DNA of 37,757 bases. It comes from a virus. The notes under the pieces were generated by a model. That model searched no databases. It saw only the letters and a program-made list of their open reading frames with translations, and was not told the DNA's origin. Shown here piece by piece: positions 11,964 to 37,757 of the stretch (its first letter is position 1; the number at the start of each line of letters is the position of its first letter). The DNA is taken from IMG/VR virus record IMGVR_UViG_3300044998_001203, positions 1-37,757 of that record, one strand, 5' to 3'. Both the position numbers and the translations under genes were made by a program.

Positions 11964-12302
11964 CTAGTTGTCCTGCGCGGGGTGGGTGGGCAGTGCGCCT
12001 TGGGCGGGGCGAAACTCAATATAGGCGCGCAAACCCATACAGGCCAGCACCCGGTGGTGGGTGTCTAGGGTGGTGTTTAGTACTTTGCCCCGCTCCAGTT
12101 GCGAGATAAACGAGCGTGTAAGTCCGGTTTGGGCGGCCATGTCGGTGGCGGATAGGCGGTTCCAGGCCCGGAAATAGCGCAGCAAGACACCCAGCACATT
12201 ACACTGGGCGTGTACCGGGTTGTTGGCAGTATCCACGGCTTGGCGGATGGCTTCTGCCAGTTGGGTGGTTTGTTCCGGGCCACAGTTGGTGAGGTTGGTC
12301 AT
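11964..12302 (-). CDS. XRE-family regulator of the cargo island, 112 aa
   Basis: Residues about 37-95 form an HTH_3-type domain (LLRYFRAWNRLSATDMAAQ, then SFISQLERGK). Its first eight residues, MTNLTNCG, are the same as those of the 38-aa peptide at 12744-12860, and the DNA around both starts is identical over 26 bp. It overlaps the upstream 109-aa gene by 4 nt, so both come from the promoter at 12659-12690. It may regulate one or both island promoters. Confidence 0.82.
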   Translation of the reverse strand: MTNLTNCGPEQTTQLAEAIRQAVDTANNPVHAQCNVLGVLLRYFRAWNRLSATDMAAQTGLTRSFISQLERGKVLNTTLDTHHRVLACMGLRAYIEFRPAQGALPTHPAQDN

Positions 12303-12308
12303 GGGTTT
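12283..12308. repeat. 26-bp direct repeat, copy 1
   Basis: Identical to 12842-12867. It covers the first codons (MTNLTNCG on the - strand) and upstream bases of the XRE gene at 11964-12302. Confidence 0.9.
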
Positions 12309-12628
12309 GTTAGTTCTTTTAGGGTCTTAAAATCTACTTTAGAGAATACCCCATCGGCCTCCAGCTGGTCAATGTCATGAGGTTGCTGGTCAAGCCACAC
12401 GGCCGGTAATAACGCGTTAGACACGTCATTGTAAGGGTCATCGTTGAGATGAAAGTAAGCATCAGCCAAGATGGCAATTTCGGCGGCTGGCACCTCATGC
12501 CAACTGCTTGGCTTGGTATCGATGAGTTTGGCGATAGCATCGATGTGATGCGGTTTTAGGTTATTAGTGTTACTCATGGGTTGGGGTTGGGCTTGGGCAT
12601 CTGTAGCGTTTGGGAGGATGAATTTCAT
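12299..12628 (-). CDS. Hypothetical cargo protein, 109 aa
   Basis: An acidic, mostly helical protein with no motif I recognise. A second ATG (residue 18) is possible. It is preceded by a full Bacteroidota promoter with a leader of about 25-30 nt, and overlaps the XRE gene by 4 nt. The pair resembles a small regulatory or toxin-antitoxin-like unit only in arrangement; the sequence does not show a toxin family. Confidence 0.7.
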   Translation of the reverse strand: MKFILPNATDAQAQPQPMSNTNNLKPHHIDAIAKLIDTKPSSWHEVPAAEIAILADAYFHLNDDPYNDVSNALLPAVWLDQQPHDIDQLEADGVFSKVDFKTLKELTNP

Positions 12629-12655
12629 GGCGGTGTGTGTTTATTGCGAGTTATG

Positions 12656-12743
12656 CACCAAATATACATCATCGAATCCGTCTTTGTCAAGTACTTTACA
12701 ACTAATTTATAATATAATATACAAGATAAGTAGTTGTACTTAC
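12656..12743 (-). promoter_or_regulatory. Cargo promoter P12 with AT-rich upstream region
   Basis: On the - strand: TTG at 12690-12688, 21 nt, TATATTTG at 12666-12659. The preceding 50 bp are AT-rich and closely match the region upstream of P16 (16652-16702), including a shared TTGTATATTATATT. It drives the 109-aa gene and the XRE gene. Confidence 0.75.
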
Positions 12744-12860
12744 GTTACTCGAAATAGTTAGCAACCGTTTGACGGATGAATGCGTCGGCCTGCTCTACTG
12801 TCCAGTCGCTGGGGATGTGGTGGTTGTTCACGTTCAGGCCGCAGTTGGTGAGGTTGGTCA
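12744..12860 (-). CDS. 38-residue peptide sharing its N-terminus with the XRE regulator
   Basis: A short frame from ATG at 12860 to TAA at 12746 encodes 38 residues, beginning MTNLTNCGLNVNNHHIPSDW and ending in a short helix. The first eight residues and the surrounding DNA repeat the start of the XRE gene at 12302. It is the last frame of the helicase-IbrA-IbrB operon, 30 nt after the IbrB-like stop. It could be a real peptide, a remnant of a second XRE gene, or a recombination scar. Confidence 0.5.
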
Positions 12861-12867
12861 TGGGTTT
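12842..12867. repeat. 26-bp direct repeat, copy 2
   Basis: Identical to 12283-12308. It includes the start of the 38-residue peptide. Recombination between the two copies would remove the P12 promoter and the 109-aa gene. Confidence 0.9.
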
Positions 12868-12890
12868 CTATCGAGTGGGTAGAAAGTTGG

Positions 12891-13388
12891 TTACCTATCG
12901 GCTTGCGTGAATTCAGTATCCTTAAACAGGGCTTTTAGGCCACTAATCTGCTTTAATCGGAGGAGTTCTTCGGCATCCATGCCAATATGTCGAAGAATCC
13001 ACTGGTCTGACATTCCAGCCGCGACTAAGTCGGCAACGATGTTGACCATCAATTCGATGGAATGTGATCCGCGGGCCCGGTTATGGCGAATAGTGCTGGC
13101 CATACGGTTGCTCAAATCTTTATCTATTACCACTACTGGTAATAATCCGCGTTCGCGTTCGCGGATTCTTTCGCTGGTTAACATTACCGTGTATCTGTGG
13201 TAACCATCTACAATCTCATATTTGTTTGTGTCTGGCACGCGGTAGCAGACCACAGGCTGGGTGTAACCATCCTCCCATATCGACAGCTCTAGTAGTCGCA
13301 TCTCGGGGGGGGCCACGCTGTTGGGATTGTAGGCATTGGCCTGTATTTGGTCAATAGGAATTGCCTGAACTTGGTAAACGGGGCTCAT
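12891..13388 (-). CDS. ibrB: IbrB-like ParB-domain protein, 165 aa
   Basis: Residues about 9-75 match the ParB/Srx-type nuclease-like domain: IDQIQANAYNPNSV, a loop, then DGYTQPVVCYRV and EIVDGYHRYTVM, where the GxHR motif is the family signature. The C-terminal part is helical with a second small domain. It overlaps the IbrA-like gene by 4 nt. The pair of a PAPS-reductase-like protein and a small ParB-like protein is the IbrA/IbrB arrangement, described in E. coli as activators of prophage eib genes. Whether this one regulates, binds or modifies DNA is not shown. Confidence 0.82.
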   Translation of the reverse strand: MSPVYQVQAIPIDQIQANAYNPNSVAPPEMRLLELSIWEDGYTQPVVCYRVPDTNKYEIVDGYHRYTVMLTSERIRERERGLLPVVVIDKDLSNRMASTIRHNRARGSHSIELMVNIVADLVAAGMSDQWILRHIGMDAEELLRLKQISGLKALFKDTEFTQADR

Positions 13389-14626
13389 AAGTTCATGTAT
13401 CGGTTAAGAGTGGATAACTTACGCTCTTGTTCTTCCTTGGTTGCCGCAAAACCCATATACTTACATAGTATGTCGTTTTTAAGTATACAAACACACATTC
13501 TTTTGTAGCTTGGTATTTTATTGAAATAACTAGACTGTATTTCGTCTATGTAATCCAATTTAACTTCACCTTTTTCATTCTTTTTATATTCTATCATGTT
13601 TTTATCTAAATCTTCTATGGCTTCAATAGGTAATTTCCCTCCCTTTGTGCGCCAAAATTTTAGGCTTACAGCTAATTTTTCACGATACCTTTGCGCGGTA
13701 TCCTTTGGCAAGGTATCTAGAAGAAAATCGCAGTATTCCTTCCATGTAAAATGTTTTGGCTTAGTAATATTTCGCCATCCCATTGCTGTTGTGTTACCGT
13801 AAATAGCGGCAAAGTTTACACCATTTACTCTGCTCACCATCTTGCCCCAGGTGTGCGGTTCTAACACACGGTAGAGATGTAGGCTTGCTATGCCTTGTTG
13901 CAGAAATGGGCTTGCTACGCGCATCTCATGTATGCTTAAGCCTGCCTGATGCATCAGGTCGTATAGCCGATTATTTGGCCAATCCTCCTTCGCATAGGCT
14001 CGCCAGATATCTTCGGTTTGCCAATCATATATTGGGTGAGCTACGTCCGTGCCATTTGGCAGATGTTTCCACCACTTGTGCCCATCCACTCGATTGCCTT
14101 GGTCTTGCTCCAATGCCCGCCAGCGATTTAGGCTTTCTTGCATACGCAGCCCAAGCAGCACGATTGTCCTTTTAGCGCCCTTATGTTTATGATGCCAAGG
14201 GGCAAACTCATGCCCAAACTCATAGTCGGTAATATCTGGCCGGTAAAAGTCAAAGTCTTTGGCAGTATAGGCATTTGGCGGCATTTGTCTTACCCATATA
14301 CTTTTGTCGGCATCAGCCCAGGGTCGCCAGTAGGGCGAATTCATGTGGGTGGCGCACCCAGCGTTAAATTCCACGCAGCAGTGGTAAATATCGGTTACGT
14401 CTGTAACGTTAGAATGTGCATCTAGTACATATTCGGTAGTGGCTTGATATTGACACTCATAATCAAGATGCAGAACACTAAATCTGCGGCCTAACTCACG
14501 TGCAATTTTCGCGGTCAGAAAAAGGACAATTCCACTATCTTTTCCCCCGGAAAAACTTACAATAATGTTATCGGCCGCATTAAAAAGTAGTTTAATACGC
14601 TTTTCGGCAGCTTGATATACGTTCAT
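13385..14626 (-). CDS. ibrA: IbrA-like PAPS-reductase-family protein, 413 aa
   Basis: An adenine-nucleotide alpha-hydrolase/PAPS reductase fold with the PP-loop SFSGGKDSG at residues 24-32, where ATP is bound. Downstream are HLDYECQY, an HCC...C cluster, and a long C-terminal half of the DUF3440 type found in IbrA proteins. PP-loop enzymes of this group activate a substrate by adenylation; DndC of DNA phosphorothioation is a relative at the fold level. I set the start at ATG 14626 because it overlaps the helicase stop (ATGA); an ATG at 14641 would add five residues. AT-richer than the tail genes. Confidence 0.85.
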   Translation of the reverse strand: MNVYQAAEKRIKLLFNAADNIIVSFSGGKDSGIVLFLTAKIARELGRRFSVLHLDYECQYQATTEYVLDAHSNVTDVTDIYHCCVEFNAGCATHMNSPYWRPWADADKSIWVRQMPPNAYTAKDFDFYRPDITDYEFGHEFAPWHHKHKGAKRTIVLLGLRMQESLNRWRALEQDQGNRVDGHKWWKHLPNGTDVAHPIYDWQTEDIWRAYAKEDWPNNRLYDLMHQAGLSIHEMRVASPFLQQGIASLHLYRVLEPHTWGKMVSRVNGVNFAAIYGNTTAMGWRNITKPKHFTWKEYCDFLLDTLPKDTAQRYREKLAVSLKFWRTKGGKLPIEAIEDLDKNMIEYKKNEKGEVKLDYIDEIQSSYFNKIPSYKRMCVCILKNDILCKYMGFAATKEEQERKLSTLNRYMNL

Positions 14627-16113
14627 ATTGTTTCCCTCCAATTTTTGGAATTATGTATAAATTCATGTAGCCCAAGTTTGGTTGAAAGACATTTATGAAT
14701 AATGGTATCAATACCCATGCTAGTGCTAAAGTCTACATAAGTAACTGGATGAGATTGTCCCATCCGGTGTAGCCTATCTTCCGCCTGTATCCGCTCGCTA
14801 AAGTTAAAGCTATTACTGACAAATGCAGCCTTACTTGAATGGGTTAGGTCAATGCCTAAACCTGCAACTGCGATGTTGCACACTAATGCGTCTTGGCTTT
14901 TTCGCCAGTTAGCAAGGATTTCCGGCCTCGCTTGTGCTGGGGTGCGACCATCATAAGGTATCGCACCTGGAAGATGCTTTGCCAGCCAATCTACCTCGTG
15001 ATGATAGCGGCAATAAATTACCTTGGGTTCTTTAAGCGACAATGACCAGTTACGCACTGCTACTAATTTATCCGGCACTGTTGCTGTCCAATCGCCTTGC
15101 TGGCCACTTATTATTTGCTGAAGTGCGGTAAACAGTTCGTATACCATGTTTACACTGTTCCCGCCAAACCACTTATTTAATATTTGGTGTTTCGTGTCGT
15201 GGTACTTTACCACGGTTTCTTCGCTCAACTTTACGTGTATTGTTTCTTGCAGTTTTGCAGGCAAGTTTAGTACAGCCTGTTTGGTGCAAGTGAACCATAC
15301 AGGTTCAAGTGATGCATACAGCTGGGGCTTATCTGAATATCCAATAACCCTCCCTTTGTCCTTAACTATAAACCTGCGCTCAAAGGCTTCTTGCGACATG
15401 CCTTGCACAATGCTAAGGCTAGGGTCTAAGATAGCCATTTGTCCCCATAGATCAGCCGGTGAGCGCGGCACAGGAGTGCCGGAAAGAGCGTATCTGTAAA
15501 CGCAGTGTTTAGCGATTTCGATGCAACGATAGTTGCGCCAAGTGTCGCCGTTTTTGACCCAATGCGCCTCATCCACTATTAGCATTGTGGGTTTACGCCG
15601 GACGAATTCAAGTGATTCATTAAACTCTCTGACCGAAAGCGAAAGGCTGTCTAGCCCAACAAACTTAAATTCTAAATCAGCGCCGCCTTGTTTTTCAATT
15701 TCAGCTACTGCGTTGGTAATAGTTTGCAATGGAGCGGCCCAGATAACTTGACTGATTTCCCCGGTGCTAGCCCTGGCTTTAGCTAATTCAAGGGCAATTT
15801 TGGTTTTTCCTGTGCCCATCTCAAGGTATAGTGCCCCGAAAAAATATTGTGACACTTTGGCAAAAGCTTCTTGCTGATGCGGAAGCATCTCTGGTACTGA
15901 TATTTTGCCAGCGGCAGATGGTTTCGCGGGCGATATTACACGCGGATAGATGCCTTTTGCTTCTGCTAGCCATAGAGGCACGTGGTATCCGCCTTTACCA
16001 GCCGAGCGGACCGCAGACTTAGGCAGCCAATACTGGCCAGCATCTGACACTACTTTCCAAGCTTTAGGCGTTTGGCTGAGTATTTGGGCTTCAATGTAGG
16101 TATATTCACGCAT
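14623..16113 (-). CDS. SNF2-family DNA helicase/translocase, 496 aa
   Basis: Superfamily 2 ATPase with Walker A MGTGKTK (99-105), DEAH (181-184), motif III SGTP (211-214), and motif VI QAEDRLHRMGQ (443-453), which is the SNF2-type signature. The N-terminal 70 residues are an extra domain of unknown role (GQYWLPKSAV). It is compact and lacks large SNF2 insertions. It should move on double-stranded DNA using ATP. It overlaps the IbrA-like gene by 4 nt and the upstream unknown gene by 8 nt, so the proteins are made together and probably act together. Confidence 0.9.
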   Translation of the reverse strand: MREYTYIEAQILSQTPKAWKVVSDAGQYWLPKSAVRSAGKGGYHVPLWLAEAKGIYPRVISPAKPSAAGKISVPEMLPHQQEAFAKVSQYFFGALYLEMGTGKTKIALELAKARASTGEISQVIWAAPLQTITNAVAEIEKQGGADLEFKFVGLDSLSLSVREFNESLEFVRRKPTMLIVDEAHWVKNGDTWRNYRCIEIAKHCVYRYALSGTPVPRSPADLWGQMAILDPSLSIVQGMSQEAFERRFIVKDKGRVIGYSDKPQLYASLEPVWFTCTKQAVLNLPAKLQETIHVKLSEETVVKYHDTKHQILNKWFGGNSVNMVYELFTALQQIISGQQGDWTATVPDKLVAVRNWSLSLKEPKVIYCRYHHEVDWLAKHLPGAIPYDGRTPAQARPEILANWRKSQDALVCNIAVAGLGIDLTHSSKAAFVSNSFNFSERIQAEDRLHRMGQSHPVTYVDFSTSMGIDTIIHKCLSTKLGLHEFIHNSKNWRETI

Positions 16114-16615
16114 TTTCGTACATATTAGAAAATGCTACGGCAAGACGGCGGTTGATAAGAGCGGCCATTCTCAAGCCGGCGGATTGACGTTCTCCAAATA
16201 CGACCCGTTCATGGTCGACTTCACTATAAGTAGTTTTTGGGTTTGCAAGGGTGCGAAGAGATGATTCTATCCGCCATTGTTGGATACCAGCCTTGGGTTC
16301 AGGCTCAAAAACTTCAGTTGGCACGCTGGACCAAGTCCGTGGGCCAGCGTCGTGGCCTACAACAATCTCATTGACTAGCAATACTTTAAGTCCTGTTTCG
16401 CGCTCAAATCCAAAGCAGGAATGATAGTCACGACAAGGCAATGCGTGGTCACTGATTCGCGTCAGATACACTCCACCGTTAGCCTCTAGTCTATAGTAGA
16501 AGCTACAGGTATAAAGATTCGTACGTCCCTTGCTTCGGGTTTCTCCACTGCTGGTGCAGTAGGGCTTTAGCCCGGTTTGGGCTTCAAAAAGTGCGGTTAC
16601 TTGCGTCAGATTCAT
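16106..16615 (-). CDS. First gene of the helicase-IbrAB operon, hypothetical, 169 aa
   Basis: I set the start at ATG 16615, 4 nt downstream of the -7 element TATCTTTG; a longer frame to 16651 would read through the promoter. The mRNA should therefore be nearly leaderless. The protein has many aromatic residues and a possible metal or substrate site (HALPCRDYHSC, around residues 57-67). It includes a DHERVVFGERQ segment and a C-terminal helix. No family recognised. It may be a dedicated partner of the helicase. Confidence 0.72.
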   Translation of the reverse strand: MNLTQVTALFEAQTGLKPYCTSSGETRSKGRTNLYTCSFYYRLEANGGVYLTRISDHALPCRDYHSCFGFERETGLKVLLVNEIVVGHDAGPRTWSSVPTEVFEPEPKAGIQQWRIESSLRTLANPKTTYSEVDHERVVFGERQSAGLRMAALINRRLAVAFSNMYENA

Positions 16616-16702
16616 GTACCAAAGATACACTATCGTATCCGCCTTTGTCAATTAATTTACAACTTAATTACAATATAATATACAAAATAGGTAATTGTAC
16701 GT
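16616..16702 (-). promoter_or_regulatory. Cargo promoter P16
   Basis: On the - strand: TTG at 16651-16649, 21 nt, TATCTTTG at 16627-16620. It matches P12 over about 85 bp with scattered differences, including the AT-rich upstream part. It drives the operon 16615-12744. Confidence 0.75.
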
Positions 16703-16767
16703 AGATATTATTGAGTGCATAACCCTGCTGAATGGCGGGGTGGTAATTGTGCTAAATCCAGTCGGGC

Positions 16768-34109: not shown

Positions 34110-35033
34110 TCAGAATAGTTGCGGGTGGGTTACTTGCTTGAACAGAGCGGTCTCGGTGCGGGGCACTTTGGCAGATAGAGCCCTTGCACCTAGCAAGCCC
34201 GAAACGCGGGTGCGGGGCGCCGCGTGAGATACTGCGGCAAAGTCTAGTTTTGTCCACCCTGCATCCACCAGGGGTTGATATACCGGGTGCCAGTAGCAGC
34301 TCAGCACTGCGCTGCCTTTTAGGTGTAGCAGCCTGTCCACGAGTGCTGCGTGAAATTCCAGCGGTTGTTCGTGGGCGTATTCCTTGCCCTTGCGGGTGCT
34401 GTGTTCGTATGGCGGGTCGAGGTAGAATAGCGTTTCTGGCGTGTCGAATATCTCAATTACCTCCAGCGCGTCGCGGTTGTGTATCTGTACGTCACGCAAA
34501 CGTTGGCAGTACCAGTCAAAGAGCTTTTGGCGCTTCAGGAAGCCGTTTACGGTACGGGCTTTGCCGCAATTGGAAACGGTTATAGCCGTTCCCCAGCTGC
34601 CAATACCTGTAGCCCTACCCGAAAACCCTTGGTTTTGCCCCACGAAGAACGCCCACGCATCCAGCACCTCGTTGCCATAGATACCCTGTAACTCTCGCAA
34701 CCGCGCGGGCCACTGGTTTGTAGGCCGCTGTAAGATGATGAGCGCGTCTCTGTACTCTTCCTTGGCATACAGCGTGTAGCTTAACAGGTGGTGCAGCTGT
34801 GCGTTTTGGTCAGGGTGTTTGAGCACCCGAAACAGGTTGACCAGTCGTTGGTCTAGGTCGTTGTACACTTCCACGGGGCTGGGCTTGCGGCGGATGAGGA
34901 TATTGCCCGCGCCGCCGAACGCGTCCACGAAAGTCTGGCACTGGGGCATGAGCGGCAGAATCTTACTGTGCAGGTTGCCTTTGCCGCCAAACCATTGGAC
35001 GGGTGCGAGTATGCGCGTGGGGGGTTTGGTCAT
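34110..35033 (-). CDS. D12-class adenine DNA methyltransferase 1, 307 aa
   Basis: N6-adenine methyltransferase. Motif X FGGKGNL (11-17) and motif I FVDAFGGAGN bind AdoMet; DPPY (motif IV) forms the catalytic site. The C-terminal part carries the target-recognition region. I chose ATG 35033; the frame to 35108 includes the end of the upstream gene. No restriction enzyme gene is nearby, so it is an orphan that probably protects phage DNA or marks regulatory sites. Confidence 0.9.
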   Translation of the reverse strand: MTKPPTRILAPVQWFGGKGNLHSKILPLMPQCQTFVDAFGGAGNILIRRKPSPVEVYNDLDQRLVNLFRVLKHPDQNAQLHHLLSYTLYAKEEYRDALIILQRPTNQWPARLRELQGIYGNEVLDAWAFFVGQNQGFSGRATGIGSWGTAITVSNCGKARTVNGFLKRQKLFDWYCQRLRDVQIHNRDALEVIEIFDTPETLFYLDPPYEHSTRKGKEYAHEQPLEFHAALVDRLLHLKGSAVLSCYWHPVYQPLVDAGWTKLDFAAVSHAAPRTRVSGLLGARALSAKVPRTETALFKQVTHPQLF

Positions 35034-35044
35034 GTAATTTAATT

Positions 35045-35392
35045 TTAACAGGTGTGCAGAAAGTTGCTGTAAAGCTTTTTTTCGGGCATAAAAGGATTGT
35101 ACACCCATACAGGTGTATATTTTACATGTCTGGAATCCGCAAATTGTATATAACCAAGCCCTAATTCATCTAATGTCCAGCTACAAGATGCGTTGGGGAT
35201 ATGTCCAAAAGGGGTGGGGCCTTTTTCTGTGACCCAATCCTTGCTATACTCAATGCGAAATAAATACTGGCCGTTTTTGTTTGTAATAATATCCCAAAAA
35301 GCATAGCCTACTTCTCGCCCATTGGCATTTTTACGGGCTAACTTTTGCGCTAAAGCGTCTAATTCTTTGAATCCGGCAAAAATCGTTGGCAT
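35045..35392 (-). CDS. Hypothetical protein between two methyltransferases, 115 aa
   Basis: A small alpha/beta protein. Its N-terminal part has a helix (KELDALAQKLARKN), the middle strands (GYAFWDIITNKNGQYLFRIEYSKDW), and it ends with a Tyr-rich stretch. I chose ATG 35392, 5 nt after the upstream stop; ATGs at 35422 and 35524 would overlap the methyltransferase gene. It may bind or assist a neighbouring methyltransferase, but nothing proves it. Confidence 0.68.
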   Translation of the reverse strand: MPTIFAGFKELDALAQKLARKNANGREVGYAFWDIITNKNGQYLFRIEYSKDWVTEKGPTPFGHIPNASCSWTLDELGLGYIQFADSRHVKYTPVWVYNPFMPEKKLYSNFLHTC

Positions 35393-35397
35393 ACAGG

Positions 35398-36243
35398 TTA
35401 AGGGTTGGTTATTTTGCTGCATAATCGAGGGTTGAGATACAGGCTTTCGACCCTCGCGTTGCACAAGCCGCCGTTGCTTACCTTGCCGGCACTTGTGGTT
35501 GTGGGGCAAGACACGACTCGCCATCCATTGAGTATCAGCTTATCATAAGCCGCACATTGATAGCCGCTTAACGCAACCATGCCGTTGAGCAACAACAACC
35601 TATCAACTAGCTCTACGTGTTGTTCGTGGCTCATTTCATGGGGATACTCTCTCGGATTCTTGCGCGTAAGGGGATGATATGGAGGGTCTGCGTAATGCAA
35701 CGTATCTGAGCCGTCAAAGTCTTGCATGACCTCCCAGTAGTCTTTGCATTCCACTTGCACGTGCCTCAATCGCGCATGAATCTCTCCCAGTATGTCTACT
35801 CGACTATTCCAACGACTCACGGACGCGCCCCCTTTACCGCCGCCTGACCGCACAAACGACCATTGCTTGACGTTTGGGCGTGTGGGATTTATGGCCATGT
35901 TATAAACCAAAAAAGCTGCCCATGCACGTTCGGTAACAGAAAACTGTAACGGGTTGCCGAGAACTTGGTGTGCGTGTTCATATTCCTGTCTGCTGTACAA
36001 CGTGGCTTCTACCTTTGCTTGAAAGCGGCAAAATAAATCATCGTCCTTTAGGCAAGTGTATAGGGTATGCAACCTAGAATCCAAGTCGTTTACAACTTCA
36101 ATCCCCAGTGGTTCGCGAGCGAAGAGTACCGCCAACGAACCCCCAAAAGGCTCTACGTATAGCTTAGACTTGGGCAGGTAGCCTAATATCCACTTGGACA
36201 GTTTAGCCTTGCTGCCATAGTACCTGATGGGTGTGCGAATCAT
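35398..36243 (-). CDS. D12-class adenine DNA methyltransferase 2, 281 aa
   Basis: N6-adenine methyltransferase with motif X YYGSKAKL (8-15), motif I YVEPFGGSLAVLF (29-41) and DPPY (motif IV). It is only distantly like methyltransferase 1 outside these motifs, so the two probably recognise different sites. Motif I lacks the second usual Gly (GGSLA where GGSGA is common). It overlaps the upstream gene by 4 nt. Confidence 0.9.
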   Translation of the reverse strand: MIRTPIRYYGSKAKLSKWILGYLPKSKLYVEPFGGSLAVLFAREPLGIEVVNDLDSRLHTLYTCLKDDDLFCRFQAKVEATLYSRQEYEHAHQVLGNPLQFSVTERAWAAFLVYNMAINPTRPNVKQWSFVRSGGGKGGASVSRWNSRVDILGEIHARLRHVQVECKDYWEVMQDFDGSDTLHYADPPYHPLTRKNPREYPHEMSHEQHVELVDRLLLLNGMVALSGYQCAAYDKLILNGWRVVSCPTTTSAGKVSNGGLCNARVESLYLNPRLCSKITNP

Positions 36244-37071: not shown

Positions 37072-37757
37072 TGGTTGGGTTGGTGAAGGGTGAGGAATTC
37101 GTCTATCCACTCCACTGTGATAGCGGATACTTGGTTGGTCTTAGGCGTGTCGCCAACCGATATGCCGGTGAACCACCGCTCGGTGGGGCTGTAACCGTCT
37201 GGCTTTAGACCTTCAATCTTGTCGTATTCGCACCCTCTTGTCTTGGCCACAGTGCCTACGAAGCAGCGGCACTCGCCTTGGTAAGCACTTCCATCCACTT
37301 TGCCGCCGACTAGTGCCTTTCTTAGCCCTGGTATCTCGTTCGGTACAATGGCTAAGCGTTTGAAGAAGTCGGCTTTGATTTCACCTAAGTTGGCTTCGCG
37401 CAAGTTGGAACCCGCAAAGTTTGCGCGGGTGAGTTTTGCGCGGGTGAGTTTTGCGCCCGTGAGGTCTGCATAGCGCAAATTTGCGCATGTGAGGTCTGCC
37501 CAGGTGAGGTCTGCCCAGGCGAGGATTGCGCGGGTGAGTTTTGCAAGGGTGAGGTCTGCGCGGGTGAGTTTTGCGCGGGTGAGGATTGCGCGGGTGAGGT
37601 TTGTCCAGGTGAGGTTTGCCCAGGCGAGTTTTGCGCGGGTGAGTTTTGCAAGGGTGAGGTCTGCGCGGGTGAGGTCAGCGCGGTTACCTTCTCTCCCGTC
37701 GGTCTCCAGCCACAAAGCGTGGCTCGTGAGAATCTTGTTTAGTTCAAGTTGCGTCAT
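37068..37757 (-). CDS. Pentapeptide-repeat protein, 229 aa
   Basis: About 20 tandem A(D/N/K)LTx pentapeptides (residues 26-124) should form a right-handed four-sided beta-helix. A conserved C-terminal domain (about 150-229) has ECRCFVGTVAKTRGCEYD, ERWFTGISVGDTP and TVEWIDEFL, as I have seen in other phage-borne pentapeptide proteins. The ATG is exactly at the window end (37757, same as 127), so the gene is complete only when the circle is closed. Known pentapeptide proteins of the Qnr/MfpA type mimic DNA and protect gyrase; whether this one does is unknown. The first residues (TQLELNKILTSHALWLE) form a helix. Confidence 0.85.
   Translation of the reverse strand: MTQLELNKILTSHALWLETDGREGNRADLTRADLTLAKLTRAKLAWANLTWTNLTRAILTRAKLTRADLTLAKLTRAILAWADLTWADLTCANLRYADLTGAKLTRAKLTRANFAGSNLREANLGEIKADFFKRLAIVPNEIPGLRKALVGGKVDGSAYQGECRCFVGTVAKTRGCEYDKIEGLKPDGYSPTERWFTGISVGDTPKTNQVSAITVEWIDEFLTLHQPNQ
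37386..37682. repeat. 15-bp periodic repeats coding the pentapeptides, with a 105-bp internal duplication
   Basis: Units like TTTGCGCGGGTGAGG repeat every 15 bp. A block encoding RADLTLAKLTRAKLA (residues 31-45) recurs 35 residues later as RADLTLAKLTRAILA, so a seven-unit (105-bp) step duplication is visible. Confidence 0.85.
37631..37757. repeat. Terminal direct repeat, right copy
   Basis: Identical to bases 1-127; see the left copy. Removing one copy leaves a 37,630-bp circle. Confidence 0.95.

Follow-up and report, generated by a model that had tools for sequence, protein, structure and literature searches.

What does a phage gain from a SNF2-family ATPase that is encoded, together with the proteins IbrA and IbrB, in the middle of its tail operon, and on what would such proteins act? 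The locus in question belongs to a temperate phage, whose virus record spans 37,757 bases and was analysed at its full length (the window). Since its first 127 bases are identical to its last 127, the record has the form expected when an assembly is complete and either circular or terminally redundant. Terminase, portal, head maturation protease, tail sheath, baseplate hub, and tape measure functions were assigned by profile match, as were a primase, an integrase, a repressor-like protein, and two DNA methyltransferases. The methyltransferase genes lie close together (34110–35108 and 35398–36243) and belong to the same PHROG family (phrog_56). At the right end, a 229-aa ORF with weak tail-fibre-type matches contains a 15-nt periodic repeat (37389–37703). 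The terminase has its nearest kin among phages from human faeces and from Bacteroidota.

Layout of the locus

The features of the locus are as follows:

16609–16703, minus strand: 95-nt repeat, copy 1, with a promoter-like TTG...TAnnTTTG sequence at 16651–16620, directly before U169
16106–16615, minus strand: U169, a 169-aa orphan protein with no Pfam match
14623–16113, minus strand: SNF2-family ATPase, 496 aa (Pfam SNF2-rel_dom, 4e-14; Helicase_C, 7e-8)
13385–14626, minus strand: IbrA, with a PP-loop ATP-pyrophosphatase domain (Pfam PAPS_reduct, 3e-11; DUF3440, 9e-74)
12891–13388, minus strand: IbrB (Pfam ParB_N, 1e-7; putative C-terminal helix-turn-helix)
12745–12861, minus strand: 38-aa ORF with no Pfam match, probably outside the module
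12648–12742, minus strand: 95-nt repeat, copy 2, with the same promoter-like sequence at 12690–12659, before the next small operon

A previous sequence-only reading had placed four overlapping genes inside the tail operon, between the tape measure and DUF6046 genes. Both the position, on the minus strand, and the overlaps (8, 4, and 4 nt for U169/SNF2, SNF2/IbrA, and IbrA/IbrB, respectively) were confirmed. IbrA starts with TTG at 14641 in the ORF list; the ATG at 14626 gives an ATGA overlap with the SNF2 stop codon, and the IbrB–IbrA junction is an ATGA overlap as well. The domain assignments lie above the Pfam cut-offs (PAPS_reduct, 44.1 bits vs. 22.5; DUF3440, 247.6 vs. 25; ParB_N, 32.1 vs. 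26.3). The 38-aa peptide had also been counted as a member of the module, which was not borne out: its ORF does not overlap with IbrB and has a native GC3 of 0.77, and its first 8 codons recur, by way of a 31-nt repeat (97%) that spans both gene starts, in the helix-turn-helix (HTH) gene of the operon that follows. Because of this native composition and the shared codons, the ORF was left out of the module and is probably native phage sequence.

The base composition of the four genes is foreign to the phage: within the module the GC content drops to 0.44, from a level of about 0.60. GC3 values of 0.43, 0.42, 0.41, and 0.54 were obtained for U169, SNF2, IbrA, and IbrB, respectively, and values of 0.74–0.75 for the tape measure, DUF6046, and 379-aa tail genes. 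The module appears to be an import that sits in the tail operon behind a promoter-like sequence of its own. When viral contigs were scanned with the DUF6046 and terminase proteins, no close relative of the phage emerged, and hence no empty insertion site could be demonstrated. The proposal of a promoter belonging to the module itself is supported by the sequence, in that TTGACAAAGGCGGATACGATAGTGTATCTTTG at 16651–16620 conforms to the TTG/TAnnTTTG pattern of Bacteroidota promoters. In its strict form this motif was counted three times in the window, always on the minus strand, compared with 0.07 occurrences expected in shuffles. As the ATG of U169 follows 4 nt past the −7-like box, its mRNA may be nearly leaderless.

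The two copies of the 95-nt repeat are 82% identical to each other. The small operon behind copy 2 (11964–12628) encodes a 109-aa orphan and an HTH protein with a weak HipB-type antitoxin match, possibly a toxin–antitoxin or regulatory pair. Our reading, in which the origin is deduced, is of two accessory units in tandem, both headed by one and the same promoter region. U169 is an orphan of this locus: searches of phages, viral contigs, Pfam, PHROGs, NCBIfam, and PADLOC gave no homologue, and in these databases conservation of the 169-aa protein with the cluster, a check proposed at the outset, was not supported. Its fold as predicted by single-sequence AlphaFold (pLDDT 40) was unusable and was set aside.

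A mobile, co-inherited module

Locus counts refer to best matches from sets that partly share contigs, and percentages calculated from them are not population estimates. IbrA and IbrB were found together in 78 of 80 viral loci retrieved with IbrA and in all 80 genome loci retrieved with IbrB. SNF2 accompanied IbrA in 31/80 viral and 22/80 genome loci, mostly upstream and with overlapping genes; many IbrAB pairs have no SNF2. No IbrAB pair was found beside the nearest relatives of the window SNF2 (0/80, best 80 loci by sequence). Taken alone, this last figure resembles weak linkage, yet a single branch of the SNF2 tree separates IbrAB-linked from unlinked proteins (SH-aLRT 100; 31 changes expected with shuffled labels). 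The window SNF2 sits on a long branch (2.11), and its placement relative to the two linked subclades is unsure. When loci were retrieved by the linked SNF2 lineages only, IbrA and/or IbrB were adjacent in 75 of 79 loci for the type that carries the N-terminal domain described below and in 77 of 79 for a second type; the six remaining loci all have short flanks. Co-occurrence of the helicase with IbrA/IbrB, as proposed at the outset, is thereby strongly supported, and the rarity of co-occurrence that had been named as counter-evidence was not seen in the tested SNF2 lineages. A HARP-like domain spotted by eye in the second SNF2 subtype received no support from Pfam and was rejected.

Distance matrices were correlated for IbrA and IbrB (rho 0.44) and for SNF2 and IbrB (rho 0.26; both p≤0.001), and no correlation of raw distances was found for IbrA and SNF2 (rho 0.07, p=0.12). 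Given this pattern, some exchange of partners within the module is likely. Conservation of the gene order, likewise a check proposed at the outset, was not observed; three orders of the same gene set occur. No flanking gene is constant beside the modules (the commonest PHROG family accounts for 6 of 122 flanking proteins), and no enrichment of defence genes was found among the flanking genes. The varying order and the absence of any constant flanking gene indicate mobility: SNF2–IbrA–IbrB is a real, mobile, co-inherited module that is present in phages and in bacteria of several phyla.

The same SNF2, IbrA, and IbrB set is carried by Streptococcus phages D4276 and Pika, Lactobacillus phage AQ113, Fusobacterium phage phiFN37, and Flavobacterium phage FCL-2. 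In most of these cassettes a small upstream protein is present, separate rather than fused, and those SNF2 proteins that were aligned (FCL-2 lay outside the alignment) are 25–29% identical to the window SNF2. The cassettes occupy genome positions unlike that of the window, and the gene order differs in FCL-2 (N-SNF2-IbrB-IbrA, between terminase and portal and so also within structural genes) and in phiFN37 (IbrA-IbrB-N-SNF2). In D4276 (L002:3981–4403) the module follows closely after a gene annotated as the anti-CRISPR AcrIIA5. Near the phiFN37 module (L005) a second ParB-like gene, a queuine tRNA-ribosyltransferase, and a queuosine precursor transporter are annotated; these neighbours are suggestive of 7-deazaguanine modification. 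No description of the three-gene unit was found in the open-access literature (most subscription journals and all preprints lay outside the search), and the module is apparently undescribed so far.

A GNAT-like protein accompanies IbrAB in 55/80 genome and 9/80 viral loci, and both GNAT and SNF2 are present in 11. The identity of this protein was assigned from solved GNAT structures (E=0.003) and, for one member, from NCBIfam (4e-12). On Bacteroidota chromosomes the GNAT-IbrA-IbrB locus is common (L110, L117, L139, and about 50 other genome loci), and the inspected examples adjoin genes such as those of glutamate and malate dehydrogenase. In view of the many IbrAB pairs without SNF2 and of these chromosomal GNAT-IbrAB loci among housekeeping genes, the core chemistry of IbrAB may not be specific to phage protection. 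The same chromosomal loci would fit a nucleic-acid or metabolic enzyme without a part in conflict, for example one that modifies RNA or a small molecule, borne by phages in support of host metabolism. Also in keeping with it are the repression by CitR of ybdNM, the E. coli relatives, in a setting connected with citrate (PMC9068703), and the presence of the PP-loop enzymes TilS, TtuA, and NAD synthetase among the structural matches. A ParB-type partner and a SNF2 lineage dedicated to the pair indicate DNA instead, and we consider such a metabolic role very doubtful.

Protein features and relation to known systems

The SNF2 protein of the window retains intact motifs (GTGKT, DEAH, SGTP, and QAEDRLHRMGQ). 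Snf2/Rad54 structures were matched by the SNF2 family profile with E values down to 5e-42, and chromatin remodellers and transcription-repair coupling factors are among the matches. In many modules SNF2 is preceded by a small protein of about 95–130 residues. No separate protein of this kind exists in the window, and an extra N-terminal stretch of its SNF2 (residues ~1–60) resembles the small protein encoded upstream of SNF2 elsewhere. Pairwise comparison of this N-domain with the two closest small ORFs (loci L152 and L021) gave z=8 over shuffles; a profile of the small upstream ORFs gave no significant match to the SNF2 N-terminus. The small accessory protein is apparently fused to SNF2 in the window phage.

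Active-site mutation, the other observation named beforehand as speaking against the module, was absent from IbrA and present in SNF2 of one chromosomal clade. In gut Alphaproteobacteria loci that keep SNF2-IbrA-IbrB (L136, L143, L147, L148, L158, L160–L162, L165, L168, and L170), Walker A is lost (e.g., GARKV, GAKKI), so that SNF2 may be retained there without ATPase activity. Those of these loci that were inspected have ordinary chromosomal genes alongside.

The SGGKDS motif of IbrA is intact in the window, and the PP-loop SxGKDS is intact in all of the relatives (169/169). Cys89 and Cys393 (numbered from the upstream TTG) are conserved in 96% and 91%, respectively. An invariant PP-loop and two highly conserved cysteines imply catalysis. 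The predicted structure of IbrA (pLDDT 84) has CysH/CysD as its nearest solved folds and partly matches PAPS reductase, CysD, TtuA, and other PP-loop enzymes, with a TM-score of ~0.33 when normalised to the whole query; at this value no solved relative of the DUF3440 half was evident in the structure search with the predicted model. The DGYHR and RHNRARG motifs of IbrB are present and retained among relatives, and the protein is 53–72% identical to IbrB of other phages. The C-terminal helix-turn-helix of IbrB is putative and was recognised by eye. A 539-aa fusion of IbrA and IbrB in one locus (L015) was not used as proof of interaction, because the C-terminal part of IbrA is absent from it and a deletion may be the cause. 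Separate ORFs of ~85–100 aa that match IbrA lie just upstream of IbrA in L010–L012, L045, L048, L060, and L067; in the last four loci the ORF matches only C-terminal positions of IbrA (about 373–426).

In E. coli, IbrA and IbrB (ibrAB, ybdNM) are encoded by adjacent genes and belong to the same two families (PP-loop with DUF3440, and ParB_N). No SNF2 or GNAT gene adjoins the E. coli phage ibrAB locus that was examined, and the window adds U169 and a SNF2 protein with a fused N-domain. The only functional work known on IbrAB concerns the activation of prophage genes in E. coli.

In phosphorothioation gene sets a PAPS reductase is joined by an ATPase and a protein that recognises DNA (PMC12707154). 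The phosphorothioation systems DndBCDE and SspBCD and type 4 BREX (BrxP) resemble the module in pairing a PAPS-reductase-like PP-loop enzyme with an ATPase and a DNA-recognition protein, and DndB, like IbrB, is ParB-like. The module differs in that the ATPase and recognition roles are filled by other families and IbrA falls far below the DndC cut-off: the kinship to DndC noted in the sequence-only reading amounts to partial similarity (PADLOC, 1.7e-8; TIGR03183, 27.1 bits, cut-off 290.4). Neither cysteine desulfurase (DndA) nor DndD or DndE was detected in a PADLOC scan of the module proteins. The Dpd system makes use of a ParB-like ATPase (PMC12839542) and, like the module, unites a ParB-like ATPase and a SNF2-type protein within one system; in contrast to Dpd, the module has no TGT/DpdA, and its SNF2 matches DpdE only partially. 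Scores against the DrmD, ZorD, and DpdE models were 13.1, 18.5, and 20.8 bits, with cut-offs of 610, 1500, and 500, respectively. The phage SNF2 protein DarB shields P1 DNA against type I restriction (PMC5512222). All of these systems serve as analogies, with no claim that the module belongs to them.

Candidate functions

We favour, tentatively and with a probability of roughly 0.4, a DNA-directed modification or protection system that is active during infection. Action on DNA is the simplest reading of partners that are co-encoded, co-transported, and of DNA-type. IbrB, with its nucleotide-binding ParB/Srx-type domain and putative HTH, would bring the complex to DNA, the SNF2 protein would track along the double strand driven by ATP, and the PP-loop of IbrA would activate a substrate with ATP. 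Together the three proteins would modify DNA or remodel DNA-bound proteins during infection, the simplest consequence of which would be protection of the phage DNA from host defences. FCL-2 has no integrase, and lysogeny has not been observed for it (PMC4541368); its carrying the module in the absence of lysogeny genes argues for a role in infection and not only in the lysogen. The module is also carried by Streptococcus thermophilus phages, in one of them near acrIIA5. Such ecological arguments are indirect. Counting against this reading are the score of IbrA far below the DndC cut-off, the lack of DndA, DndD, and DndE among the module proteins, the uncorrelated IbrA and SNF2 distances, the many IbrAB pairs without SNF2, the chromosomal GNAT-IbrAB loci, the loss of Walker A in gut Alphaproteobacteria, and the flanks without defence enrichment.

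Besides the metabolic role considered above, two other readings were weighed against this one. In the first, IbrA and IbrB would co-activate phage or host genes, and SNF2 would strip silencers or stalled complexes in the manner of Mot1 or RapA. IbrAB is annotated in several phages as a pair of co-activators of prophage gene expression, a naming that comes from E. coli; the putative HTH of IbrB, the remodellers and coupling factors among the SNF2 profile matches, and the promoter region held in common with a second small operon encoding an HTH protein are likewise in keeping with regulation. Such a role is nevertheless unlikely, given the catalysis implied by the PP-loop invariant in 169 sequences and the two conserved cysteines, the presence of the module in a phage without lysogeny genes (PMC4541368), and the lack of a conserved target gene adjoining it. 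In the second, the module would guard the lysogen as a prophage-borne defence or superinfection exclusion system, with SNF2 as a motor on invading DNA. The flanks without defence enrichment, the module proteins, whose scans revealed neither a nuclease nor any other effector domain, and the retention of the module by the non-lysogenic FCL-2 (PMC4541368) make this very unlikely, even with the integrase and repressor-like genes of the window phage, the partial, below-cut-off matches of SNF2 to ZorD, DpdE, and DrmD, and the import as a block with its own promoter-like sequence, as is often the case for lysogenic accessory genes.

Until now IbrA and IbrB have been annotated only as prophage co-activators or as unnamed PAPS-reductase and ParB proteins in phages and plasmids. 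With a dedicated SNF2 motor in several phyla and invariant IbrA residues, IbrAB merits testing as part of a DNA-acting machine, and as the carriers include phages of tractable hosts (Streptococcus thermophilus), the question is accessible to direct gene removal. A more specific form of the DNA-directed reading, which we regard as quite improbable, is a new DNA modification machine in which the SNF2 motor would carry the PP-loop enzyme along DNA for the installation of a sulfur- or nitrogen-containing group; if this were true, phages would own a new kind of protected DNA.
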